Source of the DNA: a virus
DNA length: 64,000 bases
Reading direction: 5' to 3' (one strand)
IMG/VR virus record: IMGVR_UViG_3300044680_000280
Coordinates: 62,001-126,000 of that record
Part shown: piece after piece, positions 1-28,246 of the stretch
How the letters are laid out: each line of letters starts with the position of its first letter
Numbering within the stretch: position 1 is the first letter of the stretch
Translations under genes and position numbers: made by a program
The notes under the pieces: model-generated
Database searches by the model: none
The model's input: the letters and a program-made list of their open reading frames with translations, nothing else
Told to the model about the DNA's origin: nothing

Positions 1-1961
1 TAGAGGAGTCCGTCCGATGAGCTGGAATCCGTGATCCTTAGGGTACGACCGTACATGGCTCCAGTCTGGGAACCCATGGAAGACCATGTGTAGGGCTGGA
101 ACTGAGTGGGAAGAGTTCGGCCACCGTAACTGAATAGGGGCGACGACTGGTCTGGAAAGAAGCACAACTGAATGACTCGGTTACCGTCATCAATGGCCGC
201 CATTACTGAGTTCGGCGAAATCCCATGGGTGAAGGTTCGAAGTTGCACAGAAACGTCGAGGACGACGTCCGAGGAGATCGACAAAAGTGGTTCGATGCGG
301 TCATACCCTCGGAAATCTCCGCCTATGAGTCCGACTTGGCTCTCAACGCTTGTTGTCGTAGCGCTCGTCGAATCGATAATCAGAGACTTAGCAAGAGCGG
401 TTGAGAGGAGAGTTTCCGTGCCCGCGTACCCTATGGGCGTCCACGGTTGAGACGCCGCCTCTGGGGTGGTCGTACCCTCATAGCTCACGAAGACAGATGG
501 TGCTGTCTGAAGAGGGTTCGTCGGAATGATGTCGTACTTGACGAAATCCCATAGAGAGGTGTTGACCGACTCATAGGACATCGACCCAAAGAAAACGCCC
601 TGGAGCTGATTGAACGGTGCCGTGAGCTCCTCAAGTGCAGGGAGTTGGCTCTCCAGAACTTGAAGCGTAGGCGTAACGTCTCCATCCAGGTAAACAGAGA
701 TGTTTCCTGACGGATCCCGAAAGAGTCGGTAGCTGTGGATAACGGTCCAGTCCAACGTAGCGGGGGAGCCCGTTGGACTTCCGTTTGAAATTCCCCCACT
801 CCAAGCTGTAATAACCGACGGGTCATTTCCACCCCCCGATACGAGGAGTCCAATCTGATTGACACCCCCGCTCGTAAGGTACCCGAGAACAATGGCTTTG
901 GATGAATCCGAGTAACCCGCCGCAATGCCCGTGAAAACTCCTTCAGTTGTCGTAGCGATCGTGATGTAATTTCGCCATGTAGCTGCAAAGACATGCTGAA
1001 AAGTGAGATCGACTTGACGCGTCCAAAATAGCACCCGCCCATTTGGAAAGGGACCAGCCACAGTCTTCGTGACAGTCAGAAGGCTGTTGGCGATAGACGT
1101 TGTGCCCGTACCTGTTCGATCCCACGGGGCAATCGGATCGTTTTCGGGAAGGGCCGTCGCCCCGTAAGAAACGAAGGTCGAGGTCACTTCCCTTGAAAGG
1201 GGCGGGTATGCGATCTTGTGAAGGGGTGAATTCAGAACAAGAAGGTTCGGATCGTTCAAAACCGCAGTGTACGCCCGCTCGTAGGCACGGTACTTGAGAT
1301 CTCTTTGTTGAGGCTGAGGAAGAGTCGATTGGGAATTGCTCGGAACGTAATTGCTGGGGACGATGAGCTGATTGTTGTAGCGGTATTTGTGACCTGTACC
1401 GTCATCGGCATATCCCACGTCACGGTTCCAGGAATTCAAGCGAAACGCAGGACTATTCAACGAGCGAAAATCAACCGTAGGGTTCTCAATCCAAGAATAG
1501 GAGACTTTGACATCATCTCCCGGGTTTGGGGGATTCGTCAGAATGATCTGTCCAAGAAGCCCGTTCACCTGTTCTGGGATAACCTGAACGTTGTTGATGA
1601 GAACCGTGACATCATCGGCTCTCTCGGCAATTTGCCCGTTACGTGGGTCAAAAACCTCCCAGGAGATGTCAGTATTGTCTGGGTCCGGAAGGTAGAAGCA
1701 TGACACGAGCTTGACAGCCGTCGTGCTCAAAATCGTTGCAATGCGGTACGTGCCCGCATTAACGTTCGTCCCACTCAGAGTAACGTAGAGCCCGAGCATG
1801 GACGGGGTGATGAGGCCGCCGGGCAGCACAACCGTAACTGGGTCCAGAATGGTTGCCCCCGATCCGCTCGCCAGGGTAAGCGGAGGTCTTGATATTGGCC
1901 CATGATCGACGAAAATCGACCTAGAGGTTATAGCCGGGGTTGTTGTGACCGCGAAACTCAT
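1..1961 (-). CDS. Lectin-like adhesin or fibre protein, 3' end outside window
   Basis: A minus-strand reading frame starts with ATG at 1961 and stays open for 653 codons to the left edge, so the C-terminus is missing. The start overlaps the TGA of the upstream 2706-residue gene in an ATGA arrangement, which argues for translational coupling. The N-terminus begins MSFAVTTTPAITSRSIFVDHG. Residues of about 300 to 500 contain strand patterns typical of concanavalin/LamG jellyrolls (for example LFWTRQVDLTFQHVFAATW and YRLFRDPSGNISVYLDGD), and a second similar stretch follows (LDVSVQLRTFTHGISPN). I infer a surface-binding virion protein at the distal end of the fibre operon. Function beyond a lectin-like fold is a guess. 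I checked the frame codon by codon at positions 1-180, around 1130 and at the start, and found no stop. Confidence 0.8.
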   Translation of the reverse strand, partial: MSFAVTTTPAITSRSIFVDHGPISRPPLTLASGSGATILDPVTVVLPGGLITPSMLGLYVTLSGTNVNAGTYRIATILSTTAVKLVSCFYLPDPDNTDISWEVFDPRNGQIAERADDVTVLINNVQVIPEQVNGLLGQIILTNPPNPGDDVKVSYSWIENPTVDFRSLNSPAFRLNSWNRDVGYADDGTGHKYRYNNQLIVPSNYVPSNSQSTLPQPQQRDLKYRAYERAYTAVLNDPNLLVLNSPLHKIAYPPLSREVTSTFVSYGATALPENDPIAPWDRTGTGTTSIANSLLTVTKTVAGPFPNGRVLFWTRQVDLTFQHVFAATWRNYITIATTTEGVFTGIAAGYSDSSKAIVLGYLTSGGVNQIGLLVSGGGNDPSVITAWSGGISNGSPTGSPATLDWTVIHSYRLFRDPSGNISVYLDGDVTPTLQVLESQLPALEELTAPFNQLQGVFFGSMSYESVNTSLWDFVKYDIIPTNPLQTAPSVFVSYEGTTTPEAASQPWTPIGYAGTETLLSTALAKSLIIDSTSATTTSVESQVGLIGGDFRGYDRIEPLLSISSDVVLDVSVQLRTFTHGISPNSVMAAIDDGNRVIQLCFFPDQSSPLFSYGGRTLPTQFQPYTWSSMGSQTGAMYGRTLRITDSSSSDGLL

Positions 1962-4900
1962 TGATTTGTCACATAATTTCTGGATATGTCTTTGGGACCA
2001 CCAATTTCTGTATCGAAGACCGTGGCGAATCCTGTGACGGTTGACGTGCCATACACTGTTCCCATTAGATTAGAAACGAATTCGACGTTCCCGGTGACGT
2101 CACAGGAACCGTCCGACTCTCCTGCGGCATCGATGGGGATAGCGTAGTCGGCAACGCACTCGGAGTTCGACGTAATGTTGGCACCGACTCCAATTGTGGT
2201 CGTTGCGGACGCGATGATCGTAGAGTTGGCATCGATTGTGGACGTATCGTGACCGTGGACGAAGATCGTGAGGGAATCACTGGTCGAAACCGCATCCGAA
2301 AGGGTCTCGCGATGATTGACGTTAATCGCATAGCTATTGGGCACGCACACGGAGTTGGCGGTGACCGTCGAGGAGACATTGAGAGTCTTAGTACCGTTTG
2401 CAGTGATCGAGGAGTTGGCCGTGACGGTCGCGGTGTCTGTCTTATAGTTGGCACCGATATTGGCTGTAACTGTAGAGTTTGCCGTAATGGCCGATTGACC
2501 GGTTACATTGGTAATAGCTTCAACCGTGAGAGTGGCGTATGCCTCAATGTTGACGTAGCCCGCCGCCTGCTGGTAGATGACATTTCCACCAACGATACAC
2601 CCGGACTCGGAGAAGCCCTGTCCGAATACGGCTCCACCAAGGAGGCCCGTAAGGTAAGAGGTACCGTAGCCAGCCGAGGCAATGCTTTGAACGACCTGTT
2701 CTCTGACCCCAGTGGTCGAAAGACCCGTAACTGCCCCAGAAATGTGATTTGCATATTCCGCATTTCCAGTAATGGTACCGACACCATCGGCTTCACATGG
2801 ATTGTCCCCGTAATACTGATTGCCAGGACCCATTATGGCCGTGGCCATGCCGGTAATAGAACCCGCAATATGGTTGTCAAACTCCGCGTCGCCGGACACG
2901 GTCGCGAACCCGTCCACCGTATTGAGGCTGGGAGCCCAGATCTTCCTGATACCACCATAGAGCTGACCGGTAGCGCCAGAGACGTCGGCTCCCGCATAAA
3001 CCCTGTCGAGGGTCAGAGTTGTGTCGTTCTGGATGGATTCAATGAGATAGTATCCCGATCCGCCTGGGGCTGTGCCGCCGTAGAATTGAAGTATTTCACT
3101 CGCGTATAGTTGGGTCGTGAAGGAAGTTCCGACTCCAGCAACCACTGCGGTCCCATTCGTTAGCGTAAACGTACCCGTGGCAGTCTCATTGAGATTGCTG
3201 AGTTCGGTTACATTGCAGGAGCCAGACGTCGAACCAGAAATGTGATTCGTGTACTCGACATCACCCGTAAGGGTCGACGAACCGCCAGCACCAATATCCC
3301 CACCATCGACGGGGCTAAGGGCAATGATGAGGCCGATGTTAGCCTCAACGTAGGAAAGACCGTACGTAAGACCCTCAATCCAATTGGCGGGTTCAACGAA
3401 GCCCTGGACATAACACTCACCTCGGCACGTAATACCCTGGTAAAGGGAAGCACCAGTCGAGGTCGTTCCCGTGTAGGACGTGCTCAAGGTGAGAGACGTT
3501 TCACTGGAGATTGACTGGATGTAGTAAGTACCTGTTGCAGCCGGCGAACCCTCTCGGAAAGTTAGGGACTGGCCGATGTACAGGTTCAGGAAACTCGTAC
3601 CGGTTCCAGTAACCGTTGCAGAACCATTCGTCAGGGCAACCGTCCCCTCGAGCTTCTGGAACTGCACCGAGATGAGCATCGTCGAGGCGATGAGGTCGAC
3701 GGTTGCGGTCCCGCTAATCGTTTGGAACGGCGCGTACAATGCAGCAACGTTGTCCGAGTCCGTAAGAGTCTCGAAACTATCCGTGAGGGTCTCGTGAACT
3801 CCTCGACTGACCTTGAGCTTGTCGCTCGTTGTCATCGAATCCGAAGCAGACGGATAGTACTTGGCCGTCGCGGAAGCCGTAGTGGTCGCCGAACCATTGA
3901 GACTCGTGGCCCCAGACGCAACAATCACGGTAACCAGGGAGTCCTTGGTGGTCACCGTGTCAGAGACGTTCGCATTCAAAACAACAATCGAACCCGCCTG
4001 ATCCGAAATTGCAATCGTGTCGGAAACCGACTGATGTAGTTCAGCATTGACGTTAGCCGTGACACTAGAGTCAGCCAAAACGGACGAGGTTCCCGTAGCA
4101 TTGATATAGTTCGTCAGGGAGTCGGACGTGGTGGCCGTGTCGGAAACCCCCTCCACCACCGTATGAACAACGGCAAGGGAGTCGGAAACTGTAAAGTCAT
4201 CGGAGACATTTTCGAAGTAGTTCGAGTTCTGACGGGCCGTGAGGGACGAGTCGGCGGTGATCGATGCATTCGCCGTAAAATTGGCGTCCGTCTGAATGGA
4301 GTCACTGATCGAAACAGAATCGGAGAGGTTTTCGTAGATGACAATGACAGCGGTTAGAGAATCCGTGACTGTAATCGTATCCGACGCGTGAATCTCATCG
4401 TCAGCAAGCGGAGATGCCGTGACCGAGGCACTTGCATTTAGAGATGCGGTAACCTCAAAAGATGCCGACGTGTTAAGGCTATCCGTAGGGGTAATCGTAT
4501 CGGACAGTTGCTCGTTAACAACGATGACGGCGACGAGCGAGTCGCTGATCGTAATGGTGTCAGAGAGTCGAGCCTCATCCTCGTCCGTAGCATTTGCTGT
4601 AACCGAGGAACTCGCGGAGAGGGAAGCGTCCGTTCCAAAAGATGCCGAGCTCGAAAGGGAGTCAGAATAGGCGACCGAGTCAGAAAGATTCTCGTAGGCG
4701 ACTATGACTGAACTGAAGGAATCGCTGATTGTAATAGTATCGGAAATGGGCTCGATGTGGTCAGCCGTAATAGCGGCTACGAAGGAGTCCGAGCCGTCAA
4801 GCATCGCTGAGGCTTCGTAAGATGATGTGCCAGTCAAAGAGTCGCTGATCGAGATTGTGTCGGAGATGTTTTGGGTGATGACACTCAGGACTGTCAGGGA

Positions 4901-7900
4901 GTCGGACGTGGTGACCGTATCCGAAAGGCTCTCGCGGAGGTTGGCGGTAGCGCTGGCCGTAACGGTGGAATCCCCATTAATCGAAGACGAGGCAGTGAAG
5001 TTTGCATCCGTGTATAGATAATCAGAGGATGTAATCGTGTCCGACAGAGTCTCATGGAGCACGACGATGGCCGAAGCGGTGTCGGTAATCGAGATTGAAT
5101 CGGAGATATCGACTTCCTCGTACGCATTGGAACTTGCCGTCACCGAAGACGTGCCATTGAGGGAGGCGGCTACAGTGAAGTTCGCATCCGCTGTGAGGGA
5201 ATCGGAGCACCCGATTGTGTCGGACAAGGACTCGTGGAATACAACGATTCCGGTCGCCGAGTCCGTGATCGTGATGACGTCGGATAGATAAACATAGTCA
5301 TCCGCCGTAACGTTTGCTGTCAGGGACGATGAACCGTCGAGGGTCGCGGATGCCGTGAAGCTGGCGTCTGCTGTTAGGCTATCCGAAGTGGTGACCGAAT
5401 CCGAAACGCTCTCATGAAGAACGACGATTCCGGTAACCGAGTCCGTGATCGTGACGGTGTCCGAGAGGTGGATTTCATCGTCTCCCGTTACCGAAGCGGA
5501 CAAGGACGCGGAGCCGTCCAGGGTAGCAGTCGCATGAACGTCGGCACTGGTCTGTAGGAAGTCCGTAAGAGAAATGGTGTCCGACAGGCTTTCGGTAAAG
5601 ACAACAACCGAGCTGACGGAATCCGTGATTGAGATCGTATCGGAGAGGTGAAGTTCGTCCTCTCCAGTGGCATTAGCCGTGACCGAGGAGTCAGCGGAGA
5701 TGGTCGACACCACGAAGTAGGCGGCGTCGGTCTGAAGGGAGTCTGTATAGCTAACCGAGTCCGACAGGTTCTCATTGATTACGATGACCGCGGTTAGGGA
5801 GTCACTGATAGAGATCGTATCGGATAGGTGAAGCTCATCGTCTGCCGTCACGCTCGCGGTGAGCGTAGAACTGGCCGAAATGGCCGAGGCTGCCTCGAAA
5901 GACGCAAAACTGGTAAGAGAGTCCTCGTACGTCGTTGTGTCAGAGACGCTAACAGTAAGAACCACCTGAGCGGTCAGAGAATCGCTACTAGTAATCGAAT
6001 CGGAAATAGTGATGATATGATCGGCTGTGATAGCGGCTACGAAGGAGTCGGAACCATCGAGCATCGCCGAGGCTTCGTAATCCGCAGTGCTCGTCAAGGA
6101 GTCACTGATTGAGACCGAGTCCGACACGCTAACAGTAAGAACCACCTGAGCGGTCAGAGAATCGTAGATGCTGATTGTGTCAGAAACTGACGTGGGGTAA
6201 TTCGAATTCGACCGAGCCGTGATAGACGAGTCCCCATCTATCGATGCGGAGACCGCATGGTTAGCGCTTGTACTGAGGAAGTCCGAAGTGCTGATCGAGT
6301 CAGATAGTGCTTCGTAGGCAACAACGATTGCGGAGACGGAGTCCGTGGCCGAAATCGTGTCCGAGAGGTGGAGTTCATCATCTGCCGTCGCGGCGGCCGT
6401 AAGAGAGGAGCTTCCGTTGAGGTTCGAATGCGCCGTGAAGTTGGCGTCCGTTTGAATCGAATCGGCATAGGTAATCGTATCCGAGGGACTCTCGTACACA
6501 ACGATGACCGCGGTCAGAGAATCGGAGATGCTGATTGTATCAGTGACAGACCCGCTATCGTGAGCCGTAATACTAGCGGAAACCGATGAAGTTCCGTCGA
6601 TGGTCGAGGTTCCCGTATGACTGGCTACGGCCTGAAGAGAATCGGTCGAAGTGATCGTATCCGAGATGTTGGCTTGGATGACGACAACCGCAGTCAGGAT
6701 GTCACTGACCGTAATGGTGTCCGAAAGCGTCTCGACGTGCGAGGCCGTGACGCTAGCAGAAACCGAGGCGTCGGCGTCGATGGTTGAGGTTGCAGTGAAG
6801 TTGGCGTCAGTTTCCAGGGTGTCGGAATAGGTGACAGTGTCCGAAACGTTTGCGTGGACGATGATAACTGACGTTACCGAGTCAGAAATAGACACGGAGT
6901 CAGATACGGAGGCGGCATCGTGGGCTGTGATGCTGGCCGAAACCGAGGAACTCGCCGTGAGGGACGCTTGAACCTGATGGTTCGCATCCGTCTGGAGGGA
7001 ATCCGAAATGGTGACCGTATCGGAAACGTTCTTGTAGATCGTGAGGGTCGTCGACAGGGAGTCCGATATGGTGACAGTATCGGAAAGGCTCTCAACGTGA
7101 TCAGCGGTGATCGCCGCCAAGAGGGAGTCGGTTCCGTCTATGACCGCGAACGCCTGGTAGCTCGCATCCGTGGTCAGAGAATCGGTACAGGTAATCGTAT
7201 CCGAGAGAGAAGGTATACCCGAGAGAACAACGGAAAGTGAATCCGAGAAGGTGACAGTGTCTGAGACAGGGTTTAGGTAATTGGAGTTGCTTCGAGCTGA
7301 GCAGGTCGAGTTCGCCGTCAGTGAGGCGGCCACTTCCCTTATGGCAATGGCAGAGGCCGTGTCTGAGTACGTGATCGTATCTGAAACGTTCGCATTGAGG
7401 ACGACGGTTGCGGTAACCGAGTCCGTGGCACTGACCGTATCAGACAAACTTGCCTTATGCTGAGCAAGGGCCGAAGCGGATACGGATGCAGAACCGCTCA
7501 AACTCGAGGCGGCCGTATGATTGGCGTATGCGGTGAGAGAATCCGTATAGGTAACCGTGTCCGAAACGCTTCGATGAACCGTGGTTATGCACGTGACCGA
7601 ATCAGTAGTCGAGATCGTGTCACTGAGAGATATGACTCGATTCGCTTGAGCCGATAGGGAGTCCGTGGCCGAAATCGTATCGGAAAGGGATTGGATATGA
7701 TTCGCGTCAATGGAAAGAGAATCGGTGACCGAAACCGTGTCGGAGACGCTTACCGACAACACAATGATTGAGGACAGAGAGTCCGAAATTGAGATCGTGT
7801 CTGATAGACTCGGATTGTGTTGCGCGAGAGCTGAAGCCGTGAAAGACGAGCTGGCGGATAGAGAGGAAGCAGCGACCTTATTCGGATGGGCCGTAACAGA

Positions 7901-10078
7901 ATCAGTGCACGTAAGGGTGTCAGCAAGTGGAATACTGTTATTCCTGCCGACTGCCAAGGAATCGGATACCGCAATTGTGTCACTGACCGAGATATGGTGA
8001 CCAGCAGAGGGCGAAAGAGAGTCAGAAATTGTAATCGAGTCGGACGTGCTGATAGCTCCGTACGTCCGTTGTTTCTGAAGTGGTTGTCGACGTCTCGGAA
8101 GCTTTGCGTAGTAGGGAACGGGCGGGTCGGCGCCCTGAGTGGCCGTGTTCGCTGATGTGTTGATATTCGCCGTGGTGGCGGTGGTGCCCGTATAAGGTTG
8201 GGCTAGAGTGAGCTGACCATTTCCCATTGTGTAACCACTATTCGTGGGAACAGTGGTCGTCATGGTCATGGAGGTGGAACTGTTAATTGATGATATCGTA
8301 TACGTGCCAGTTGCCGTCTCGCTCTCATAGTATAGAGTTACGGTTTGACCTGGGAATAGGTGAGTAAAATCCCCAGTATCAACTGCCCCTACGCCCCCGA
8401 CGGTGTTGCTTGCGGTGAGCGTTGTGGTGCCATTCGCATTTATACCGCAACTGCAATTGTAAATGGCTGCAATCGTGTACAACGGAGAAACGGTAACACC
8501 CACGGGACCCAATGGGGTAACGGACACTCCTGAGGTGTTCGCCGAACTGGTGTAATTCGTTGTTAGAGTCAACGAAGTGGTACTAGAGATGCTCTGAATG
8601 ACATAGGTGCCAGATGCGGTAGGGGAGCCCCCGCTAAAAGTTATCGATTGACCCGCAGCAAGATTCGTTGTAAAGCTGGTACTGGTACCAGTAACGGTTG
8701 CAGAACCATTAGTGAGGGCGACCGTACCTGGAATAGTGGATGGGGACCCTTGGTATGGGGTCGTCAAAGTCAGTGCGGTGTTACTCGAAATGGAAGCGAT
8801 GGTGTAAATACCGACCGATAGTAAGGCTCCAATTGTCGTTGCCGAGGCATAGTTCGTTGTTAGTGTCAGAGACGTTGTACTCGCAATAGCCGCGATAACG
8901 TAGGTGCCGGATGCGGTTGACGAGCTACCAGACGAGGCGCCACCACTGAACGTAACCGTCTGTCCTACAACCAAGGTAGTTGTAAAACTAGTGCCAGAGC
9001 CTGTTACTGTAGCCGATCCATTGGTAACAGTGACAGTACCTCCAATGGTACCTGGACCAGTAGAGAAGGAAATGGGTTGCCCGACAGCAAGCAGGGTTGA
9101 AAAACTAGTGCTCGTACCTGTAACTGTCGTTGAGCCATAAGTGAGTGCGGCAGTGCCGGCTATACTAGATTGAGAGGAAAAGGATACGATTTGCCCAGGG
9201 TACAACTGGTTCAAGTAGTTGTAGTTCCACGACAGAATCGTGGTTGGTGCCGTCGGAGTGACCGTGGTTGAACCGTTTGTAACCGAGTTCTGAAGACTTA
9301 CAATTGAGAACCCCGACCCGTTCCCCAAAAGGGTGTACGTAGCGCTAGTTCCAGCAAATGGCCTTAATGCAAATTCAACATTGTAGAAGTTCGGGGCTTG
9401 GTTGTTGAGGTCTGTTTCTCTAGTAAATGGCCAGTATCCGTAAAGGGTATTCAGATTGTCATATGTGGGGGAGAGTTGCTCGGACTCCCTTTCAATGGCC
9501 GCAATCGGCAGAGCCTCCAGCCACATTTTCAGACCAGATATCGAACCTATGAAGGTGTTCTGGAATGTGTTTGTGTACGTGTAGGCGCCGTAGTTGTAAT
9601 TGATACCCAGGCAAAATGTCTGCCCGAGCACTTGTGGGATAGTGGTGTTAGTGTAGTAACTGAGTGAGCTAGTAGGTGTGCCCACAGCCTTCGCAAAAAT
9701 GGTGACAACCGTAGAGGCCGTGTAGGCACTCATCGTCATTCCGACGAAGTACCATTGGTTGTTCTGTAGGGAGACAGTGGATCCGCTTGTAGTGACAACC
9801 GTAGAGGTAGGATCTCCCACCGCTAGAGTGAGCAGACCGGGGGACCCCGCTGCACCCGCGGAACCTTCAATAACTAGAGCGATAGTAGAGCCGCTGGCCG
9901 TCGAGGCCATCTGAAACAAGTAGGCATACGGGGCCCCGCTGCCGTTGTTGTTCAACGACTGAAAGTGCTGCATGTTGATAAACATGCAGATGGTGAAGCC
10001 GTAACCGTTCGAAGAAATGAGCGCGGGAGAGGGGGTCGCTACGAGACCGCCGGCACCTCCTGATAGGTATAAGGACAC
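1958..10078 (-). CDS. Giant repetitive tail fibre protein (2706 aa)
   Basis: The protein starts with GTG at 10078; an AAAGG lies about 10 bases upstream, inside a small AACCT/AGGTT hairpin. Residues 1-240 look like a concanavalin/LamG domain (motifs FTICMFINMQHFQS, NNQWYFVGMTMSAY, FIGSISGLKMWLEAL). Residues of about 250-660 hold several copies of the beta module typified by VTNGSATVTGSGTSF followed by a GQxVTFSGG turn. Residues of about 679-2118 are 72 tandem 20-residue modules rich in SDTISISDSL (separate repeat entry). The C-terminal part has two more VTNGS-type modules, four copies of a (N/D)(V/A)E(Y/F)xNHISGxxTG motif, and one stray SD module near residue 2600. No catalytic motif is visible. 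The likely role is a long fibre or adhesin with an N- or C-terminal binding domain. Identity as a fibre is inferred from composition and its place after the baseplate genes. Confidence 0.85.
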   Translation of the reverse strand: MSLYLSGGAGGLVATPSPALISSNGYGFTICMFINMQHFQSLNNNGSGAPYAYLFQMASTASGSTIALVIEGSAGAAGSPGLLTLAVGDPTSTVVTTSGSTVSLQNNQWYFVGMTMSAYTASTVVTIFAKAVGTPTSSLSYYTNTTIPQVLGQTFCLGINYNYGAYTYTNTFQNTFIGSISGLKMWLEALPIAAIERESEQLSPTYDNLNTLYGYWPFTRETDLNNQAPNFYNVEFALRPFAGTSATYTLLGNGSGFSIVSLQNSVTNGSTTVTPTAPTTILSWNYNYLNQLYPGQIVSFSSQSSIAGTAALTYGSTTVTGTSTSFSTLLAVGQPISFSTGPGTIGGTVTVTNGSATVTGSGTSFTTTLVVGQTVTFSGGASSGSSSTASGTYVIAAIASTTSLTLTTNYASATTIGALLSVGIYTIASISSNTALTLTTPYQGSPSTIPGTVALTNGSATVTGTSTSFTTNLAAGQSITFSGGSPTASGTYVIQSISSTTSLTLTTNYTSSANTSGVSVTPLGPVGVTVSPLYTIAAIYNCSCGINANGTTTLTASNTVGGVGAVDTGDFTHLFPGQTVTLYYESETATGTYTISSINSSTSMTMTTTVPTNSGYTMGNGQLTLAQPYTGTTATTANINTSANTATQGADPPVPYYAKLPRRRQPLQKQRTYGAISTSDSITISDSLSPSAGHHISVSDTIAVSDSLAVGRNNSIPLADTLTCTDSVTAHPNKVAASSLSASSSFTASALAQHNPSLSDTISISDSLSSIIVLSVSVSDTVSVTDSLSIDANHIQSLSDTISATDSLSAQANRVISLSDTISTTDSVTCITTVHRSVSDTVTYTDSLTAYANHTAASSLSGSASVSASALAQHKASLSDTVSATDSVTATVVLNANVSDTITYSDTASAIAIREVAASLTANSTCSARSNSNYLNPVSDTVTFSDSLSVVLSGIPSLSDTITCTDSLTTDASYQAFAVIDGTDSLLAAITADHVESLSDTVTISDSLSTTLTIYKNVSDTVTISDSLQTDANHQVQASLTASSSVSASITAHDAASVSDSVSISDSVTSVIIVHANVSDTVTYSDTLETDANFTATSTIDADASVSASVTASHVETLSDTITVSDILTAVVVIQANISDTITSTDSLQAVASHTGTSTIDGTSSVSASITAHDSGSVTDTISISDSLTAVIVVYESPSDTITYADSIQTDANFTAHSNLNGSSSLTAAATADDELHLSDTISATDSVSAIVVAYEALSDSISTSDFLSTSANHAVSASIDGDSSITARSNSNYPTSVSDTISIYDSLTAQVVLTVSVSDSVSISDSLTSTADYEASAMLDGSDSFVAAITADHIITISDSITSSDSLTAQVVLTVSVSDTTTYEDSLTSFASFEAASAISASSTLTASVTADDELHLSDTISISDSLTAVIVINENLSDSVSYTDSLQTDAAYFVVSTISADSSVTANATGEDELHLSDTISITDSVSSVVVFTESLSDTISLTDFLQTSADVHATATLDGSASLSASVTGDDEIHLSDTVTITDSVTGIVVLHESVSDSVTTSDSLTADASFTASATLDGSSSLTANVTADDYVYLSDVITITDSATGIVVFHESLSDTIGCSDSLTADANFTVAASLNGTSSVTASSNAYEEVDISDSISITDTASAIVVLHETLSDTITSSDYLYTDANFTASSSINGDSTVTASATANLRESLSDTVTTSDSLTVLSVITQNISDTISISDSLTGTSSYEASAMLDGSDSFVAAITADHIEPISDTITISDSFSSVIVAYENLSDSVAYSDSLSSSASFGTDASLSASSSVTANATDEDEARLSDTITISDSLVAVIVVNEQLSDTITPTDSLNTSASFEVTASLNASASVTASPLADDEIHASDTITVTDSLTAVIVIYENLSDSVSISDSIQTDANFTANASITADSSLTARQNSNYFENVSDDFTVSDSLAVVHTVVEGVSDTATTSDSLTNYINATGTSSVLADSSVTANVNAELHQSVSDTIAISDQAGSIVVLNANVSDTVTTKDSLVTVIVASGATSLNGSATTTASATAKYYPSASDSMTTSDKLKVSRGVHETLTDSFETLTDSDNVAALYAPFQTISGTATVDLIASTMLISVQFQKLEGTVALTNGSATVTGTGTSFLNLYIGQSLTFREGSPAATGTYYIQSISSETSLTLSTSYTGTTSTGASLYQGITCRGECYVQGFVEPANWIEGLTYGLSYVEANIGLIIALSPVDGGDIGAGGSSTLTGDVEYTNHISGSTSGSCNVTELSNLNETATGTFTLTNGTAVVAGVGTSFTTQLYASEILQFYGGTAPGGSGYYLIESIQNDTTLTLDRVYAGADVSGATGQLYGGIRKIWAPSLNTVDGFATVSGDAEFDNHIAGSITGMATAIMGPGNQYYGDNPCEADGVGTITGNAEYANHISGAVTGLSTTGVREQVVQSIASAGYGTSYLTGLLGGAVFGQGFSESGCIVGGNVIYQQAAGYVNIEAYATLTVEAITNVTGQSAITANSTVTANIGANYKTDTATVTANSSITANGTKTLNVSSTVTANSVCVPNSYAINVNHRETLSDAVSTSDSLTIFVHGHDTSTIDANSTIIASATTTIGVGANITSNSECVADYAIPIDAAGESDGSCDVTGNVEFVSNLMGTVYGTSTVTGFATVFDTEIGGPKDISRNYVTNQ
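3725..8044 (-). repeat. 72 tandem 60-bp (20-residue) SD modules in 60-residue A-B-C units
   Basis: Reading the minus strand from 8044, every 60 bases begins a 20-residue module; the 72nd begins at 3784, exactly 71 x 60 bases later. There is no net insertion or deletion anywhere. Typical modules are A = SDTISITDSVSSVVVFTESL, B = SDTISLTDFLQTSADVHATA and C = TLDGSASLSASVTGDDEIHL. C-type modules occur at number 4 and then at every third position from 10 to 70, giving a 180-bp super-repeat. Module sequences have diverged widely, but a 39-base stretch is identical at 5946-5984 and 6126-6164, 180 bases apart. A 22-residue block starting at YEASAMLDGSDSF recurs 1260 bases (7 x 180) apart. Confidence 0.95.
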
Positions 10079-10098
10079 GTCAGATCAACCTTTCTAGG

Positions 10099-11904
10099 TT
10101 ATGCAACCTGACGCTTGATGCCTTGCCACGTGTGACCAAAGGCCGGGGTCTCCAAGTACAAAGACGTCGTAGTCGAAGTCGTTCCCGTGTAATTGGACGC
10201 CAAGGTCAACGAGGTGCCGCTTCCAATTGCTGAAATGGTGTACGGGACTCCGGGCTGAGAAGCAAAGGAGATGACTTGCCCAACGGTAAGTTGTAGAAAG
10301 CTCGACGTAGCAGTTGTAACTGTCGCGGACCCGTTCGTCACATTGACGTTAGTCAGGCTGTCAAATGCACTAGTCAGTAGGGCGACTCCGCTTCGGTTCT
10401 CAACGATGATGACTATGTGATCGGGAAGGGAACCACTGAAAGCGGACGCGACACTGAAGGGGGAGCTAAACTTGCTGACGTACCCTGTTAGGGTCGTACC
10501 GGTACTTGTTGCTCCAGTATAGGGAGAGGTCATCGTCAGAGTGGGATTGCCCGTCAAAGTCACTGACCCCGAGCCAGAGTTATTTGCATTAGTAGTTAGC
10601 GTTAGCGAAGTATTGCTGGTGATCGTCGCAATGACATATGTGCCCGTCGGAGGAGTGGTTCCACCTGAAAATGTAACTGCCTGGCCAGGAACGAACTGGG
10701 TCAAAAAGCTTGTGGAGGTTCCCGTAACGGTTGAAGAACCGCTCGTAGTGGCGACTGTACCACTACCCGTAACGCTGCTACCAATGGCCAAAACCATGTA
10801 TGGGACACCGGCTTGACTCGCGAGAGTTATGGTTTCACCCACAGCAGCAGTAAAGGCCGTCGCGCTAGAGAGGACGGAGTATCCGTTCGTAGCATAAACC
10901 GTTGTGCTTCCACCTGGAGCCGTGGCAGCGGACGTGCCGACGTTCATTGTACCTATGAGTCGGGCATTCGGAGGAGATGTCAAGGTCACAGGAGCGGAAA
11001 CCCCGGTTACCTCTTCACCGTAAGTCAATCCGCCGTCCGATGTGCCCGTCGCGTATACGTTAATGATCGACGGTGCGACAGGAGTTGTATTCGTGGTGGC
11101 TTTGACTTGGACGAAAATGTCCTCGAACTCATTGAGAAATGAGTACATAGACAGTGAGTTTGAAGTCGTGCCTGAGTAAGTGGTGGTCAGACTCAAGGAG
11201 TACGCACTTGCGATAGAAGCTATCGTGTAGGTAGTCCCCAGAGACCCTGCAAACTGTACAACCTGATTGACGTACAAGGTGGAGTTGAAATACGTTCCTC
11301 CGTTGGTGTACAAGGTGGCGCTCGACGACGTCGCACCACTGTAAAAACCCGTCAGAGTGAGAGTCGTATTGGTAATACTGGAGATCGTGTAATTCACCCC
11401 GGGTTGCGAGCTGAAACTGATCAATTGACCGATGCTCAACGGAAGGTAGGTGAAGCTGGCCCCAGACGTCCCCGTGCCCGTATAGTTCGTGGTTAGGGTC
11501 AAGGAGGTGTTGTTTGTGATCGACCCAATGACGTAGGTCCCCGTTGCCGTACCACCACCGAACGTGATCATCTGACCCACGGACAACTGAGTCAGGAAGC
11601 TCGTGCTAGACCCTGTCACGGTTGCAGAGGCGTTCGTGACAGTTACGGTCCCCGTTCCTGTGTATCCCGTAAGGCTCGTGGTGACGCTCGTCGAACCATT
11701 CGTCACCGTCACCGTGCCAGAAATGGAAGCCATCGAGACGGCCGTCGAACCATTCGTCACCGAGACAGATCCAGGAAGCAGAACTATCCCGTTCGCCGTG
11801 TTGTCGATGTACGAAGAGGCTGTCGCGGACGTTGAGCCCAGGTTCGCCAGAGCCATCGGCAAGGGCTGAGCCGGTGCCGCGTAATTGGACGAAACTATGC
11901 TCAT
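10099..11904 (-). CDS. Fibre-base protein, shorter paralogue of the 772-aa gene (601 aa)
   Basis: The protein begins MSIVSSNYAAPAQPLPMALA and is clearly paralogous to the 772-residue protein encoded at 13015-15333: both share the N-terminal SATASSYIDNTANG block, the PPNARLIGTMNVGTSAA-like segment, the LPDHIVIIVENRSG segment and a HTWQGIKRQ ending. It stops at KRQVA, just where the longer paralogue continues into a C-terminal domain, so it lacks that domain. Most of the chain is built from VTNGS-type beta modules (for example VTNGSATVTTATSSF and ATTSGSSTVTGTSTSF). The start codon lies in the 3' arm of a leader hairpin shared with two other fibre genes. The inferred role is a baseplate-proximal fibre or adaptor. 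No enzyme motif is seen. Confidence 0.8.
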   Translation of the reverse strand: MSIVSSNYAAPAQPLPMALANLGSTSATASSYIDNTANGIVLLPGSVSVTNGSTAVSMASISGTVTVTNGSTSVTTSLTGYTGTGTVTVTNASATVTGSSTSFLTQLSVGQMITFGGGTATGTYVIGSITNNTSLTLTTNYTGTGTSGASFTYLPLSIGQLISFSSQPGVNYTISSITNTTLTLTGFYSGATSSSATLYTNGGTYFNSTLYVNQVVQFAGSLGTTYTIASIASAYSLSLTTTYSGTTSNSLSMYSFLNEFEDIFVQVKATTNTTPVAPSIINVYATGTSDGGLTYGEEVTGVSAPVTLTSPPNARLIGTMNVGTSAATAPGGSTTVYATNGYSVLSSATAFTAAVGETITLASQAGVPYMVLAIGSSVTGSGTVATTSGSSTVTGTSTSFLTQFVPGQAVTFSGGTTPPTGTYVIATITSNTSLTLTTNANNSGSGSVTLTGNPTLTMTSPYTGATSTGTTLTGYVSKFSSPFSVASAFSGSLPDHIVIIVENRSGVALLTSAFDSLTNVNVTNGSATVTTATSSFLQLTVGQVISFASQPGVPYTISAIGSGTSLTLASNYTGTTSTTTSLYLETPAFGHTWQGIKRQVA

Positions 11905-11942
11905 GGGGTGCCTAATCCCGTGAGCTAAAAGAAGAAAGTGGC
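11900..11942 (-). promoter_or_regulatory. Start-codon hairpin leader of the 601-aa gene
   Basis: On the minus strand a pyrimidine tract (CTTTCTTCTTTTA) is followed by a stem whose arms are 11917-11924 and 11900-11907, with a 9-base loop containing TAGG. Seven of eight positions pair; 11904/11920 is an A-C mismatch in the transcript. The ATG at 11904-11902 is inside the 3' arm. The same tract plus hairpin precedes the 772-aa gene, and a variant precedes the 2178-aa gene. Confidence 0.6.
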
Positions 11943-11979
11943 CTCAGGAAAGAGTCCCCGCAAGACCAATTTCCAAGGG

Positions 11980-12000
11980 TTCCCCACAATTTTTGGGGAA
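11980..12000 (-). other. Small hairpin immediately after the 72-aa gene
   Basis: Arms 11980-11985 (TTCCCC) and 11995-12000 (GGGGAA) give a perfect 6-bp stem with a 9-base A/T-rich loop, abutting the TAG stop at 12003-12001. No T-run follows on the minus strand, so it is not a standard intrinsic terminator. It may be an mRNA-stabilising or attenuating structure. Confidence 0.35.
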
Positions 12001-12219
12001 CTAACCTTTGGCCGTTTCTTTGACTGGAACGATGGCTACCACTCGAAAGAGGTAGGGAGCCGCAAGCGGGGCGCCAGCAAGACCGGCCGCGAACTTCTCT
12101 GCGGCGGACGCGGTAAAGGGACCGTGGTGAATGTCCACGAGGCAGATAACCTTCTCCTCGGTTCCATCTTCACTCCGAACAGTGGCTTTTCCGTGTAGGT
12201 TCTCTTTTACATTGACCAT
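12001..12219 (-). CDS. Small protein of unknown function (72 aa)
   Basis: I place the start at the ATG at 12219 (MVNVKENLHGKATVRSEDG) because a perfect GGAGG at 12232-12228 sits 8 bases upstream. An in-frame ATG five codons earlier, at 12234, would place that ribosome binding site inside the gene. The protein is short, with a likely beta-rich first half (VRSEDGTEEKVICLVDIHHG) and an alanine-rich helix in the middle (ASAAEKFAAGLAGAPLAA). No signal peptide or family is recognised. It sits between a lectin-like gene and the 601-aa fibre-base gene, so it could be a fibre chaperone or a minor adaptor. That is a guess from position only. Confidence 0.6.
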   Translation of the reverse strand: MVNVKENLHGKATVRSEDGTEEKVICLVDIHHGPFTASAAEKFAAGLAGAPLAAPYLFRVVAIVPVKETAKG

Positions 12220-12266
12220 TTTGGTGTCCTCCATAGGAACAGGAATCCTAGCATAAATGGCTCACG

Positions 12267-13013
12267 TTATGCAGTGAATCCATAACGTGTGGTGACGTAG
12301 CTCTTCCAAGCGGAGCGCACTGTAGAGCCGACGGATCCGTTGTAAAAGGCCAACTCGTAAATCTTCCCACCAAATTGAATGGAGCCTGCCCCGTTACCCA
12401 CTACAATGCCGGTTCCGCCCGCAGGTACGTTACCACCGCCCCCAGAGGAGGCAGTGGTGCTGTTCGTGGTAGTGGAAACATATGAAAATGCAGAGGTGGT
12501 AGAAAAAAGGCAATCGATAAGGTACGAATTTCCAGTTGCGACCGTAACCTGATTTATGAAGCTAGTACTAGTTCTCTGACCAATCTCAGTGGCAGTTCCC
12601 ATACGAATAGCCGGGTACCCTGCGCCAGAATTGGTTAGGTCGATCAACCATGCCGTAGAATCCGAGGTAGTATACTGAACCACCATGAAAACTTCGTATG
12701 GATTGCCTAGGTTCAAAGTCTGACTTGACGAAAGGAAGTACCCCCCTATGGTCGAGAAGTCAATATACGGACAACCATTGAGACCTCCAGTAGTCTTGTA
12801 CCCGGGCCTATTTCCAGGCGTTGCTTGAGTCAATGTTTGACTGTTGGCCAAACCCAATTGGTCCACCCACTCAGAGACGTTATTGCTTGAGTCTGTAGTG
12901 ACGCCTAAGTCACTACGAAACCAAGAAACGCAAGTCGGACTGGTGGTGCCCGTGGCAATAACGGGAAATATGTTTATCGGTGCTGGAGCGCCTGCTCCCA
13001 ATGCGAAAGGCAT
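12267..13013 (-). CDS. LamG/concanavalin-like single-domain protein (248 aa)
   Basis: The whole protein reads as one jellyroll lectin-like domain. The pattern VSWFRSDLGVTTDSSNNVSEW, then WVDQLG, NRPGYKTTGGLNGCPYIDFS and a C-terminal GGKIYELAFYNGSV is what LamG-like phage and bacterial surface proteins show (W-R-D near the start, an rP-x-x-x-x-x-x-G-v-n-G-x-P-x-v-x-F step, and a final xxIxEIxxYNxxL strand). A glycine/serine loop lies near residue 190. Its ATG follows the TAA of the 772-aa gene by one base, and that gene's last codons supply AAGGTGG about 10 bases upstream as ribosome binding site. I infer a receptor-binding or fibre-tip subunit used together with the upstream fibre-base protein. 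Confidence 0.75.
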   Translation of the reverse strand: MPFALGAGAPAPINIFPVIATGTTSPTCVSWFRSDLGVTTDSSNNVSEWVDQLGLANSQTLTQATPGNRPGYKTTGGLNGCPYIDFSTIGGYFLSSSQTLNLGNPYEVFMVVQYTTSDSTAWLIDLTNSGAGYPAIRMGTATEIGQRTSTSFINQVTVATGNSYLIDCLFSTTSAFSYVSTTTNSTTASSGGGGNVPAGGTGIVVGNGAGSIQFGGKIYELAFYNGSVGSTVRSAWKSYVTTRYGFTA

Positions 13014-13014
13014 C

Positions 13015-24769: not shown

Positions 24770-27700
24770 TCAACTTGTGGCAGTACGGTAGGTGATCGTG
24801 AAGTCCCCTTGTGTGATGTACTCAACGGCAGCCGCCGTGATATCGTGGGAACCGGTATCACCTCGTATGATGTACGTGCATGTATACGCATGATTCGTCG
24901 GAATATCGGGTGGTGTACCCGCCGATGATAGGGAAATGACCACGTGGTTAGCCGTAAGGACGAGTTGCTGAGCGGCGATTTGTGCGGGCGTCGTATAACC
25001 CTGAGCAATGAGGGTAGCCGAGTCGGAATATCCAGTAATGCTGGCACCTTCCGCCCCTATAATCCAACCCTGAGACGGACCGCTCGCCACCGTGGCAAGC
25101 GACGTCGCTGGAGTCATTTGCACGTCGTCTTGGAAGACTCCGTGGGTTTCAGTAGCCAATCCCCCACCGTCAGTTGTTGGGTACTCCAAAGCGCCCGTAA
25201 GAATGTATGCGTTATTGCCCCCGATATTAAGTGAGGGAACCGCCTGGTATGCCGAGTTCACGGTCTCTCGAAGCTTGATCGAACCATCGGCGTAACCCAT
25301 GAGGGCGAAAGGTAGGACATTGAAGTCCACACCCGTCGTATCATTGATGGCGGCGTCTATGTTTGATTGAGCGACGCCCTGACCGATGAGCTTCTGATTC
25401 AGAATGAGAGAGGTGTTCGTACGAATAAGTGGGTCCACGGTCGACTGCACCGCGCCCGAATCGAGCTGAACCGTAGTCTCCAGGTTCACATCATTCTCAA
25501 TTGTCTGCTTGACAAGAACGTCCGCCGTAACGTGCCTTTGGGTATTCACGACGGCTTGGAGCTGCTGGAGGAGATCGTTGATGACGTACGTGACCACGAA
25601 GTTTTCATCGTGGACGTAGTCGACGCTAACCGTCTGCCCACTAACAATGTTCGAAGTCGCTGTTCGCACGAGCTTTGCGGGCGTCGTTGCCGTTCCCTGA
25701 ACGATATCGTAATCAGGAGCCGAGGAGCCTGGTCCATTGTACTCAGTCGTACGATCCGCAGAGTACACGGCAATCGTATCCGTGTTGATTCCTATGCTCT
25801 CTAGGGGTTCGTTGAAGAACCCAATGAGAACATGGACTTCATTGTTCACCGTAATGGTCGCTCCCGACGGGATTCCCTGATACTGAATGATCGAAATGTT
25901 GTCCGTGGAGATGGTAGATTCCCCAACGAGGAGAGGATCCGCGCTCTTGTCGAAAACGATATTGTTTGTGGGGGACAAGGGTCCAGAAACTTCTCCAACG
26001 ACAGAAACGACTCGAATGACTGGCTGAAAACTGAACGTAAAAACGTTCGCCACTTGAAATCGGTAACTAGCTTCAATGACGTCATCAATGTGCGTTGTCG
26101 GCTGGTCCGGAAGAGCGGGGTTCAGCGTGAACGTCTCATAGTCGACAAGGGTCAACCCCGTGAGATCGTAACTCAACCCCTGCGTAACGTTGAATACACT
26201 CAGAACTTGGATAATAGGCGTTGACGGTGTGACCCTTGAGTCCAAAGCTCGCAGTGTGAGCGTCGCAAGATTGATAATAGAGGCATCGATCCCACTGGCA
26301 ATCGTATACGTAAAGGCAAAAGTCTCAGAGATCGTACGCTCAAGCGTGCCTTGAACCCAAATGTCGACTTTGCCACCAATGTGCTTCATACGGACAGGGT
26401 CATAGTCGCGCATCATGAGGGGATCGCCACTCTTGACAACGAGGGCTTTCACTATGCCTACCTGGGACGAAGCCGTACGCTCGTAACCACCCTCAGTGCC
26501 CGTATCAACAGAGACGAACCCTAGGATGGCCCTAGCCGCGAGCTGGGAGTTTGTCTCGACGTCGGTCCCAAAGACCGTTGCAGCATCGTTTGTGACCAGA
26601 ACACCCGAGACGCCCGAAATTTGCGTAATGGAACCCGCGGGAAGGTTTCCGATGCTCCCTGTCTGTTCACAAACGATGTCAACCGTAATTTGGTAGCGCT
26701 TCTCATCGAAGTTGTAATACGCTTGCGCATTCGCAGCAGGGAGAGTGTACGCGCCCGCAATAAGGAACCGTACGGCCGTCGTGTTGGTGCTCGAATTAGC
26801 CGGAGCCGTCACATAGGAATTGGCAGGAATGTCAATGTCTTGAATGGGGGCGGTCAGAGTGTAAATGACTACCTGTCCAGTCGCGGCATTGCCGGGAAGC
26901 CGTGTCTTGTCCTCGTTCCCAGCGAGCTTGTCGAACTGGGTATCGATGAGGCTTTGCACTGCCGCCGTGGACTGAAACCCGAGAGCCGCCATAAGGGCGG
27001 TCTTGTAGGGGCTTGAGCTGACTGGGTCAGAAGTCCCCGTATTGTTCGCATCGTCGATCTGAATTAAGGTTAGGAAACTCTGGGATCTGTGGACGAAATC
27101 CAACACGAACCAAAGGCGCTCCCCTTCCGAGGCAAATGGGTCAATGGATACGTCTCGGGTCGTTGAACCCGGAATCATGGCCACATTGGCGTTGACCGTT
27201 TGAACCTGAGTGATGTAGGAAGTGGTGATGTCGGCAGCAACTCGGCCTGGAAGGTCCGTAATCGCCGTATCGATGGTTAGCGGCGTTCCGAGAACTTCCT
27301 GAGAATACGGGGTCTCAATTTCCTGGTGGAGAGCGCTGTCGTAGAAAACAGCGGTAACAACGTAGTAAAGTGGGTCCGTTGCGGCCACACTGACGAACTG
27401 CTCCGAATTGATGATTCCAGTACCGCCCGCACGATTGTGGGTGAATACGATGAACTCGTTCATGTGGTAGCTCTGAAAGGTGTCCGTGAAGGACAGCTTC
27501 TCAGCGAGGTTCGCTACCTGATACGAATTGTCGTATCTTACGGCTAAGATTTGACCGAAGTCATTCTCCTCCGTAACGCGGATTCGAACGTTCTGAAGGA
27601 TGGTATTGTCCCAAATAGCCGTGTCATTGGCGGACGTAATGATATCCTTTTCGTACGTCGTCGGCGTCAGAACAGGCGAAGCGTTGACCTTGTAATACCC

Positions 27701-28246
27701 CGTAGAGCCACCGGACGCCGTCGAGGCGTAAATATTGAACCCCAGGAAAGACGTCGTCGCAGGAACCGAAATGGCATTCGAGTTTTGAACGACCTGACCG
27801 GGAACCGCTACTGGTTGCTGCCCAACGATGAGAATGGGGGCGAGAGCCAGGATATCGACCGTGTTTCGGTTGCGATTGACCCGAACGCCGGTCGGAATTT
27901 GGGTAATGACAGCATTCGAAGAAAGAACTCTCGTAACCGTTACGGTAGAGGCGGCGCTAACCGCTCCAATGATGTCGACGGTTCGAAGTTGTATCGTATT
28001 GAGCCCGACGATAAGGCCTAGCCCGTCGGGGTAGGACGCTGGATTAGGAACCGTGAAGTTCTGGAGGTTGAAAAGAATGAGAGTTGGATCCGAGACGAAC
28101 GTGCCCCCGTTTATCGATATTTGGATCGCCGCTGTGTCCGGAGTGACCGTACCCGTAATGATGATCGCAGACTCGTTCGTAGTGAACGTAAGGGCTGTTG
28201 TTGTGCCCGAGCCATCTCTCAATTCGATCTGGGGTGCGGTTGCCAT
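24770..28246 (-). CDS. Baseplate J / gp6-like wedge protein (1158 aa)
   Basis: The core at about residues 440-720 shows the baseplate J family pattern: conversion of an anchor region (QDIDIPANSYVTAPANSS) to a V-R-F-L step, then CEQTGSIGNLPAGSITQISG with the characteristic G-x-x-G-N-x-P-A-G-x-I, then ETNSQLAARAILGF and later GGYERTASSQVGIVKALVV. The family forms the inner ring of the baseplate wedge in T4 (gp6), P2 and Mu. About 400 N-terminal residues precede the core. They look like Ig or FN3 folds (GTVTPDTAAIQISINGG; YYVVTAVFYDS), which makes the protein much longer than P2 gpJ. It is followed by the large fibre gene and preceded by the gp25-like gene, as in other contractile baseplate modules. 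Confidence 0.85.
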   Translation of the reverse strand: MATAPQIELRDGSGTTTALTFTTNESAIIITGTVTPDTAAIQISINGGTFVSDPTLILFNLQNFTVPNPASYPDGLGLIVGLNTIQLRTVDIIGAVSAASTVTVTRVLSSNAVITQIPTGVRVNRNRNTVDILALAPILIVGQQPVAVPGQVVQNSNAISVPATTSFLGFNIYASTASGGSTGYYKVNASPVLTPTTYEKDIITSANDTAIWDNTILQNVRIRVTEENDFGQILAVRYDNSYQVANLAEKLSFTDTFQSYHMNEFIVFTHNRAGGTGIINSEQFVSVAATDPLYYVVTAVFYDSALHQEIETPYSQEVLGTPLTIDTAITDLPGRVAADITTSYITQVQTVNANVAMIPGSTTRDVSIDPFASEGERLWFVLDFVHRSQSFLTLIQIDDANNTGTSDPVSSSPYKTALMAALGFQSTAAVQSLIDTQFDKLAGNEDKTRLPGNAATGQVVIYTLTAPIQDIDIPANSYVTAPANSSTNTTAVRFLIAGAYTLPAANAQAYYNFDEKRYQITVDIVCEQTGSIGNLPAGSITQISGVSGVLVTNDAATVFGTDVETNSQLAARAILGFVSVDTGTEGGYERTASSQVGIVKALVVKSGDPLMMRDYDPVRMKHIGGKVDIWVQGTLERTISETFAFTYTIASGIDASIINLATLTLRALDSRVTPSTPIIQVLSVFNVTQGLSYDLTGLTLVDYETFTLNPALPDQPTTHIDDVIEASYRFQVANVFTFSFQPVIRVVSVVGEVSGPLSPTNNIVFDKSADPLLVGESTISTDNISIIQYQGIPSGATITVNNEVHVLIGFFNEPLESIGINTDTIAVYSADRTTEYNGPGSSAPDYDIVQGTATTPAKLVRTATSNIVSGQTVSVDYVHDENFVVTYVINDLLQQLQAVVNTQRHVTADVLVKQTIENDVNLETTVQLDSGAVQSTVDPLIRTNTSLILNQKLIGQGVAQSNIDAAINDTTGVDFNVLPFALMGYADGSIKLRETVNSAYQAVPSLNIGGNNAYILTGALEYPTTDGGGLATETHGVFQDDVQMTPATSLATVASGPSQGWIIGAEGASITGYSDSATLIAQGYTTPAQIAAQQLVLTANHVVISLSSAGTPPDIPTNHAYTCTYIIRGDTGSHDITAAAVEYITQGDFTITYRTATS

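Follow-up and report, generated by a model that had tools for sequence, protein, structure and literature searches.

A 72-module array of 20-residue SD repeats forms the middle of a probable tail or adsorption-fibre protein of a jumbo phage

The window analyzed here, a stretch of 64,000 nucleotides (bases 62,001-126,000 of a 406,734-bp virus record), contains an open reading frame (ORF) of 2706 aa (1958..10078, minus strand) whose middle part is an array of 72 consecutive modules, each 20 aa long (residues 679-2118; 3725..8044, minus strand). The array is best read as a variant of the SD module, a widespread uncharacterized repeat, and stands out by its length, its strictness and its three module types. 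The most economical reading of the array is the elongated stalk of an adsorption protein. We consider it probable that the protein is a tail or adsorption-fibre virion protein of an uncultured jumbo phage with a contractile tail, its middle 1440 residues forming a long rigid β stalk.

Cutting the translation every 20 codons from base 8044 recovered the 72 modules at the positions claimed in the first-pass annotation. A register scan gave +25 bits per module in this frame, and the 19 alternatives scored -10 to -48. The autocorrelation suggested in the same annotation was equally clear, with residue identities of 0.41-0.45 at lags of 60, 120, 180, 240, 300 and 360 residues. Identities at the other multiples of 20 were 0.22-0.24, the median over lags 1-399 was 0.085, and the maximum among 500 shuffles was 0.148 (lags 10-129). 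The absence of indels, which had also been claimed, was examined with leave-one-out profiles allowing shifts of up to 3 residues. It held for the 68 of 72 modules that aligned best ungapped, and broke down at module 72, which gained 14.4 bits when gaps were allowed. A compensating gap pair in modules 14, 65 and 68 gained 0.3, 2.2 and 0.3 bits, which we regarded as noise. The last module alone clearly requires a gap, and it belongs to a frayed, degenerate end (modules 71-72; 3725..3844, minus strand), where a shift of about 3 residues is needed by module 72. Near the C-terminus of the protein, a second small patch (~2113..2503, minus strand) contains C-like motifs and one SD module. Its motif spacings were 21, 20, 43 and 20, so the spacing drifts outside the array. 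A second IMG/VR contig, identical to window bases 1-14,544 with zero mismatches and zero gaps, carries an identical copy of the ORF. The array is therefore no assembly slip of a single contig, although both contigs may share one sample.

The modules fall into three types. Fifty of the 72 open with [STA]-D, and the remaining 22 are of the C type. The commonest residues per column are SDTITISDSLTAVVVLYENL for type A, SDTITYSDSLTTDANFTATA for type B and SLDGSSSVTASATADDEESL for type C, with many columns mixed. The A and B modules have a near-invariant Asp at positions 2 and 8; in A, and mostly also in B, these are combined with Ile or Val at position 4 and often a bulky residue at position 6. The C modules have Leu or Ile at position 2, mostly Ser at position 6, and mostly Val or Leu at position 8. 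Small residues are invariant in this type at two positions, with Gly or Ala at position 4 and Ala at position 10 in all 22 modules. Over its 1440 residues, the array consists of 36% Ser and Thr and 13% Asp and Glu, with 13 Pro and 29 Gly (2%).

As first noted, C modules recur at intervals of three from place 10 to place 70 (21 of 21 places). An extra C module lies at place 4, so the period of three begins only at module 10. Modules 1-10 (7445..8044, minus strand) run SD SD SD C SD SD SD SD SD C, off the period, and modules 11-70 (3845..7444, minus strand) form twenty A-B-C triplets of 60 aa. When module pairs were ranked by similarity, the distance was a multiple of three modules in 59 of the top 60. 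Duplication of a 60-residue unit would produce this pattern, and it accounts for the period of three. The period might instead reflect a structural requirement, with three modules per turn of the stalk. The unbroken placement of the C modules from 10 to 70 and the complementary residues at positions 2, 4, 6 and 8 between A/B and C would agree with such a requirement. We regard it as improbable, however, as the period is broken in modules 1-10, the similarity of modules a multiple of three apart is also explained by the 60-aa duplication, and the C type is absent by motif from 59/59 relatives (described below). Applied to the window protein, the C motif recovered 20 of its 22 C modules and gave no other match. 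The suggestion of three steps per turn or per chain was thus unsupported, given the off-period modules 1-10 and the 0/59 relatives with a C-type module.

The modules have diverged strongly. Between modules of the same type, pS was 0.74-0.76 and pN 0.36-0.46, indicating old copies under purifying selection. The DNA identity within the array was about 0.51 at 180 bp and 0.36 at 60 bp, and Tandem Repeats Finder detected no array at the DNA level. The first-pass annotation had argued that repeats normally drift in length by slippage, and that a constant length implies a fixed structural unit. The fixed 20-residue unit gained support, since 20 was also the modal spacing in 38 of 51 relatives, a share biased upward by queries of that spacing, and since archaeal proteins have in-register runs of 63 and 93 modules. 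The slippage argument for it was weakened, both because copies with about 51% identity per 180 bp are too diverged for slippage and because the relatives vary, with 142 of 719 spacings differing from 20 in those 38 proteins. Small indels within modules are still possible at such divergence, and the relatives have them.

Relatives were sought by scanning 2.9 million viral contigs with alignments of window blocks and of three relatives. One genome per species was also scanned, which added 3 loci, all from Thaumarchaeota. The 65 loci analyzed correspond to 60 distinct proteins including that of the window, a count that omits loci from contigs already used (L009, L010, L019, L028, L033, L034, L040, L041, L043, L050 and L060). 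The 59 relatives retain L074, with its low-complexity TPTISVT sequence, and a few weak loci. The SD motif was defined as [ST]-D-x-[IV]-x-[IV]-x-D; the search imposes an acid at positions 2 and 8 and a hydrophobic residue at position 4, and leaves the spacing free. With Asp at position 2 in 50 of its 72 modules, the window array falls within the SD-module group.

Outside the window, the 1163 motif spacings were 20 residues in 625 cases, 18 in 133, 21 in 74, 22 in 32 and 19 in 7, the share of 20 being biased upward because the queries themselves had 20-residue spacing. At least five spacings of 16-25 residues were present in 51 of the 59 relatives, the other 8 with fewer being excluded from the 51; the modal spacing was 20 in 38, 18 in 10 and 21 in 3. 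The rarity of 19 (7/1163) would suit a rule favoring even spacings, but 21 reached 74/1163. This parity rule was dropped because 21 is common in a few arrays (45 of the 74 in L020 and L073). In the 38 twenty-modal relatives, 577 of 719 spacings equaled 20, as against 71 of 71 in the window, an outcome with a probability of 1.6e-7 at that rate if spacings are independent. Seven of the 38 likewise had no other spacings, the longest with 23.

Searches of Pfam, NCBIfam and PDB sequences found nothing significant for the window array. The best PDB profile match had an E value of 0.13, and phmmer with the whole protein against the PDB placed an acetyltransferase over the array at E 0.12, neither being significant. 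Significant matches to the array came from one family alone, phrog_12240, which has no assigned function or structure (E 2.4e-6, five stretches, the best at residues 678-847). The first-pass annotation had not recognized the module as a characterized fold, and none was found in these searches. The phrog_12240 profile matched G000 at E 1.3e-6 and none of 14 control genomes. It matched four of the seven relatives scanned (L015 at 6.3e-26) but not L012, L023 or L051, and therefore covers only part of the motif-based group. By motif, the relatives matching phrog_12240 had no C-type module, unlike the window array. L051 matched phrog_22415 (4.4e-8). Two arrays passed Pfam cut-offs, L012 with Vps35 (E 9.7e-11, 41.3 bits against 35, residues 534-752) and L021 with DUF6651 (E 7.3e-9, 36.6 against 27). 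We took both as chance matches to repetitive sequence, because neither recurred in the other relatives scanned.

A tblastn search of the window array against 50,697 phage records gave no match at E 1e-3, and neither did a block of L013. A match in mycobacteriophage Aminay ran antisense to gene 26 and was discarded as chance. Two further matches, to Shewanella phage Y11 (E 7e-4) and to Methanosarcina virus MetMV (E 5e-3), fall in hypothetical proteins in which SD-like motifs can be seen by eye; both are plausible but weak candidates. Six motif octapeptides had no occurrence in the PMC papers searched, and the titles and opening abstract lines of literature on phage-fibre repeats, huge phages and Nitrosotalea contained nothing on the SD module. 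In the part of PMC10966104 consulted, the '20-residue' passage concerns helices.

Four of the SD-module phage contigs among the matches listed exceed 250 kb. The viral protein L011 has a Laminin_G_3 lectin domain ahead of its array. In the record of L029 (G002, 301,550 bp), ORFs of 1345, 2163, 815 and 275 aa matched the array protein; some phages may therefore have multiple array proteins. Among 20 neighbors of relatives scanned, 10 had a PHROG match, including a tail sheath (L015) and virion or tail-fibre proteins (L029), and the other 10 matched no family. In four phage loci, glycosyltransferase-like ORFs precede the array gene by about 1-5 kb (L013, 1402-3135; L015, 1331-3232; L031, 1748-3619; L051, 3657-4838). 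It is pure speculation that these enzymes might glycosylate the Ser/Thr-rich arrays.

SD-module matches also occurred in 17 of 81 genomes of the Nitrosotalea devanaterra family (Thaumarchaeota), with E values up to 1e-6 by module alignment. In one of these archaeal genomes (G038), several matches crossed many stops and are likely false. L096 has 63 modules in register with a mean module identity of 0.67, and L097 has 18. L095 has 93 modules in register with Glu at position 2, and was missed by the stricter motif. Its ORF exceeds 3400 aa, and its modules are very similar, by eye far more homogeneous than those of the window. Two of the Nitrosotalea array proteins contain Laminin_G_3 (E values of 5e-18 and 9e-20), accompanied by NHL repeats in one and by a near-threshold MG2 domain in the other. 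Both start with a hydrophobic leader, by eye, and are therefore probably secreted. Like the window array, the arrays of this family are built from a [DE]-x5-D module of 20 residues. Unlike it, they are cellular, their modules are more alike, and the three archaeal loci tested (L025-L027) have no C-type module. As the runs of 63 and 93 modules show, strict 20-residue register in long arrays belongs to the group and is not confined to this phage. The window array is distinguished by combining such register with strongly diverged modules and a third type of module.

The hydropathy of the window array alternates with a period of two throughout, which is β-type. The coherent hydropathy power was 1346 at 180°, and the next repeat harmonic reached 315 at 108°. 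In 10-residue windows, the power was 13.4 at 180° and 8.0 at 100°, with shuffles at 7.5 (maximum 9.4), though 100° is no harmonic of the 20-residue repeat and the fair comparison is that between 180° and 108°. In 71 of the 72 window modules, hydrophobicity was higher at even than at odd positions. The same held for 77% of 625 modules in the relatives, several arrays showing no alternation or the opposite one in the second half. The mean hydropathy of the array, 0.521, exceeded the disorder boundary of 0.456 calculated with the boundary formula of the charge-hydropathy plot, placing the array on the folded side.

These properties speak against a spacer that is flexible, acidic and mostly disordered, with a 20-residue period that would merely record the duplication of a 60-bp unit. 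The Ser/Thr and acidic content of the array, the variable array lengths in the relatives and the failed structure prediction described below (pLDDT 24.9) would suit such a spacer. However, the β alternation stays in phase across 1440 residues, and hydrophobic positions are conserved at near-saturated synonymous divergence in a sequence on the folded side of the plot. Pro and Gly are scarce, and the length is kept, in 71 of 71 spacings as against 577 of 719. We found the spacer hard to credit and ranked disorder low as the sole explanation.

The structure prediction suggested in the first-pass annotation, run here on single chains, gave no regular solenoid for the window block. AlphaFold2 (AF2) on modules 29-37 as a monomer, with 13 alignment rows, returned a pLDDT of 24.9 and no secondary structure. 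For the distant relative L051, AF2 gave a pLDDT of 74.1 (74.1-61.1 over five models), a pTM of 0.73 and an all-β structure with strands every 20 residues. Of the 37 rows in the L051 alignment, 6 came from the window and were 17-22% identical to L051. The contrast between the two predictions is not clean, because query and depth (13 against 37 rows) both differ. A regular solenoid was thus predicted for a distant relative and not for the window block.

The L051 model raises the possibility that the window array is a single-chain, right-handed parallel β-solenoid with one coil per module, to which we give somewhat less than an even chance. Coils of a β-solenoid stack at about 0.48 nm, and the array would then form a rod about 35 nm long. 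VIA-align placed the L051 model on right-handed β-helices with Z up to 13.6 and an rmsd of 2.7 over 168 residues, but the program lists mainly β-helices, so that absent families are not excluded, and such Z values are possibly generic for repeats. Foldseek with the same model found no PDB match better than E 0.41, and the best match in a viral library had E 0.045 and a TM of 0.61. Right-handed β-helix adhesins (3ljy, 3zpp) share the fold of the L051 model, and the PDB search found no sequence relation between them and the window array. In addition, Asp 2 and Asp 8 lie on the hydrophobic face of the window modules. If the array were a one-chain solenoid, these acids would stack in its interior, and metal ions, corners or interchain partners would be needed. 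AF2 also has a known tendency to fold repeats into confident but false solenoids: in the part of PMC11795689 consulted, it folds perfect repeats of random sequences into β-solenoids in 32 of 78 cases and assigns a pLDDT of 90.3 to a scrambled 20-residue mucin-derived unit. The L051 array is not a perfect repeat.

Alternatively, several chains, for example three, could intertwine in a β fibre like the shafts of adenovirus and several phages, with the module as an axial step. An intertwined fibre would give such a failed monomer prediction, the invariant small residues at positions 4 and 10 of the C modules would suit a tight axis, and tail-fibre type domains occur within the window protein. We hold this possibility only tentatively and favor it less than the solenoid, given that the A and B modules have no conserved Gly or Pro turn and that L051 is predicted as a one-chain solenoid. 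The triple β-spiral shafts of the adenovirus fibre and reovirus sigma1 resemble the window array in their long shaft, short repeats and alternating hydrophobic residues. Their repeat has about 15 residues with a conserved Gly or Pro turn in each, whereas the window repeat has 20 and its A and B modules have no column with conserved Gly or Pro. Scaled to 1440 residues, figures in the consulted part of PMC7565637 correspond to about 127 nm for a β-spiral and about 70 nm for a triple β-helix.

Other known repeat architectures were rejected. A collagen-like fibre has Gly at every third residue, and the array has 2% Gly. The RTX calcium β-roll is a Gly-rich nonapeptide repeat; the array has a period of 20 and its low Gly content, and no RTX family was among its Pfam matches. 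Tandem Ig or cadherin-like domains repeat every 70-110 aa or so, as against 20 and 60 here, and weak Pfam matches to Cadherin_5 (E 0.015) and ICAM1_3_5_D2 (E 0.047) each appeared in one of six array blocks. The staphylococcal Sdr (SD)n sequence shares only the letters S and D with the window array, as Sdr repeats are dipeptides without a 20-residue unit or alternating hydrophobic residues.

The rest of the protein and its genomic surroundings bear on its location. Residues 1-678 (8045..10078, minus strand) comprise an N-terminal region followed by GTVTVTNGSATVTGTGTSF-type β domains, with matches to neighboring ORFs. The N-terminal region has a jelly-roll or LamG-like look, by eye only; Pfam gave no LamG match there, and hhalign against three LamG domains gave a probability of 0.2. 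No relative of the first 280 residues or of the post-array region was found in the phage records, nor of the N-terminus in viral contigs except the identical second contig. Downstream of the array, a tail-type domain (3446..3649, minus strand) contains the best stretch of phrog_1980 and a weak likeness to the distal tail protein gp20 (23gd, E 8.6e-4). The tail fiber family phrog_1980 matched the window protein in six stretches (E 3.9e-25) and also matches the GTVTVTNGSATVTGTGTSF-type β domain; phrog_17834 was another match in the whole-protein profile scan. A neighboring ORF is related to the regions on both sides of the array, and the same tail-type domains occur in the 601-aa ORF upstream (10099..11904, minus strand). 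The β domain, with the pattern GTVTVTNGSATVTGTGTSF...GTYVIxSIxSxTSLTLTT, was seen repeated at ~8150-9180, 3446-3649 and 10099-11904 on the minus strand.

A baseplate wedge subunit (phrog_6; 24770..28246, minus strand) shows that the window includes a contractile-tail module, and a tail sheath (phrog_2839) lies at 61668..63914 on the minus strand. The best relatives of the sheath were in an uncultured 485-kb phage (40% identity over 71%) and in Tunturi_5 of Tunturiibacter (35% over 57%); neither record contained a match to the array protein. A 2178-aa ORF (18206-24742, minus strand) has T-G-D repeats (LTGDGTATGPG) and, by eye, both a pectate-lyase-like start and a LamG-like part. It matched phrog_36881, of unknown function, at 2.4e-7 and no Pfam family above cut-off, and is probably a tailspike or fibre as read by eye. 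Amid the tail genes, a 127-aa ORF (15462-15845, minus strand) matched the 'head protein' family phrog_240 (1.4e-32). The GC skew is negative between 48001 and 62000, although long ORFs remain on the minus strand.

In the stalk that we consider probable, 72 equal β-strand units of 20 residues each would follow one another. Alternate residues would lie on one face, with Ile, Val, Leu or Ala at positions 4, 6, 10, 14, 20 and others, and the near-invariant Asp 2 and Asp 8 of the A and B modules would share that face. The stalk would separate the N-terminal and C-terminal β domains, one end sitting on the virion and the other reaching the host surface. We infer the virion location, the stalk function, the rigidity and which end binds what from several lines of evidence. 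Within the array, these are the β alternation, the folded-side hydropathy and the purifying selection. Around it, they are the phrog_1980 match, the flanking domains related to a neighboring ORF, and the baseplate wedge and sheath in the window. The recurrence of the same module in 51 of 59 distinct relatives and in archaeal arrays, the Laminin_G_3 domains in the array proteins of L011 and of Nitrosotalea, and the all-β 20-residue repeat predicted for L051 are also consistent with a stalk.

Several observations weigh against the stalk. The window block received a pLDDT of 24.9 without secondary structure, and the L051 model is a solenoid of the kind that AF2 overpredicts, as described in the consulted part of PMC11795689, from a distant relative without a phrog_12240 match. 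The two Asp per A or B module would stack acids within a one-chain solenoid. In the literature examined, no protein of the SD-module family was found that had been experimentally shown to be a virion protein. The two phage records nearest by tail sheath have no array protein match, and among the 20 neighbors of relatives, 10 had no family and only some of the others were structural.

A more ambitious proposal, which we consider unlikely as a whole, is that the SD module represents an undescribed β architecture, a molecular ruler for adsorption stalks common to jumbo phages and archaeal surface proteins. The A-B-C triplets would then form a three-module super-coil, in which the small C residues (Gly or Ala at 4, Ser at 6) would pack on the bulky A/B residues at 4 and 6, and the Asp ladders at 2 and 8 would be closed by metal ions such as calcium.

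Taken together, the presence of the same block in phages and in large proteins of some archaea points to a molecular stalk that can be reused. Long fibrous proteins built from short β repeats are already known, but the SD module had no curated Pfam or NCBIfam family, no significant PDB sequence match and no known function. The SD arrays are a natural test case for structure predictors that invent solenoids. One solved fragment would annotate thousands of residues across dozens of proteins, and the structure of the SD module would show a way in which phages of very large size may reach a host.
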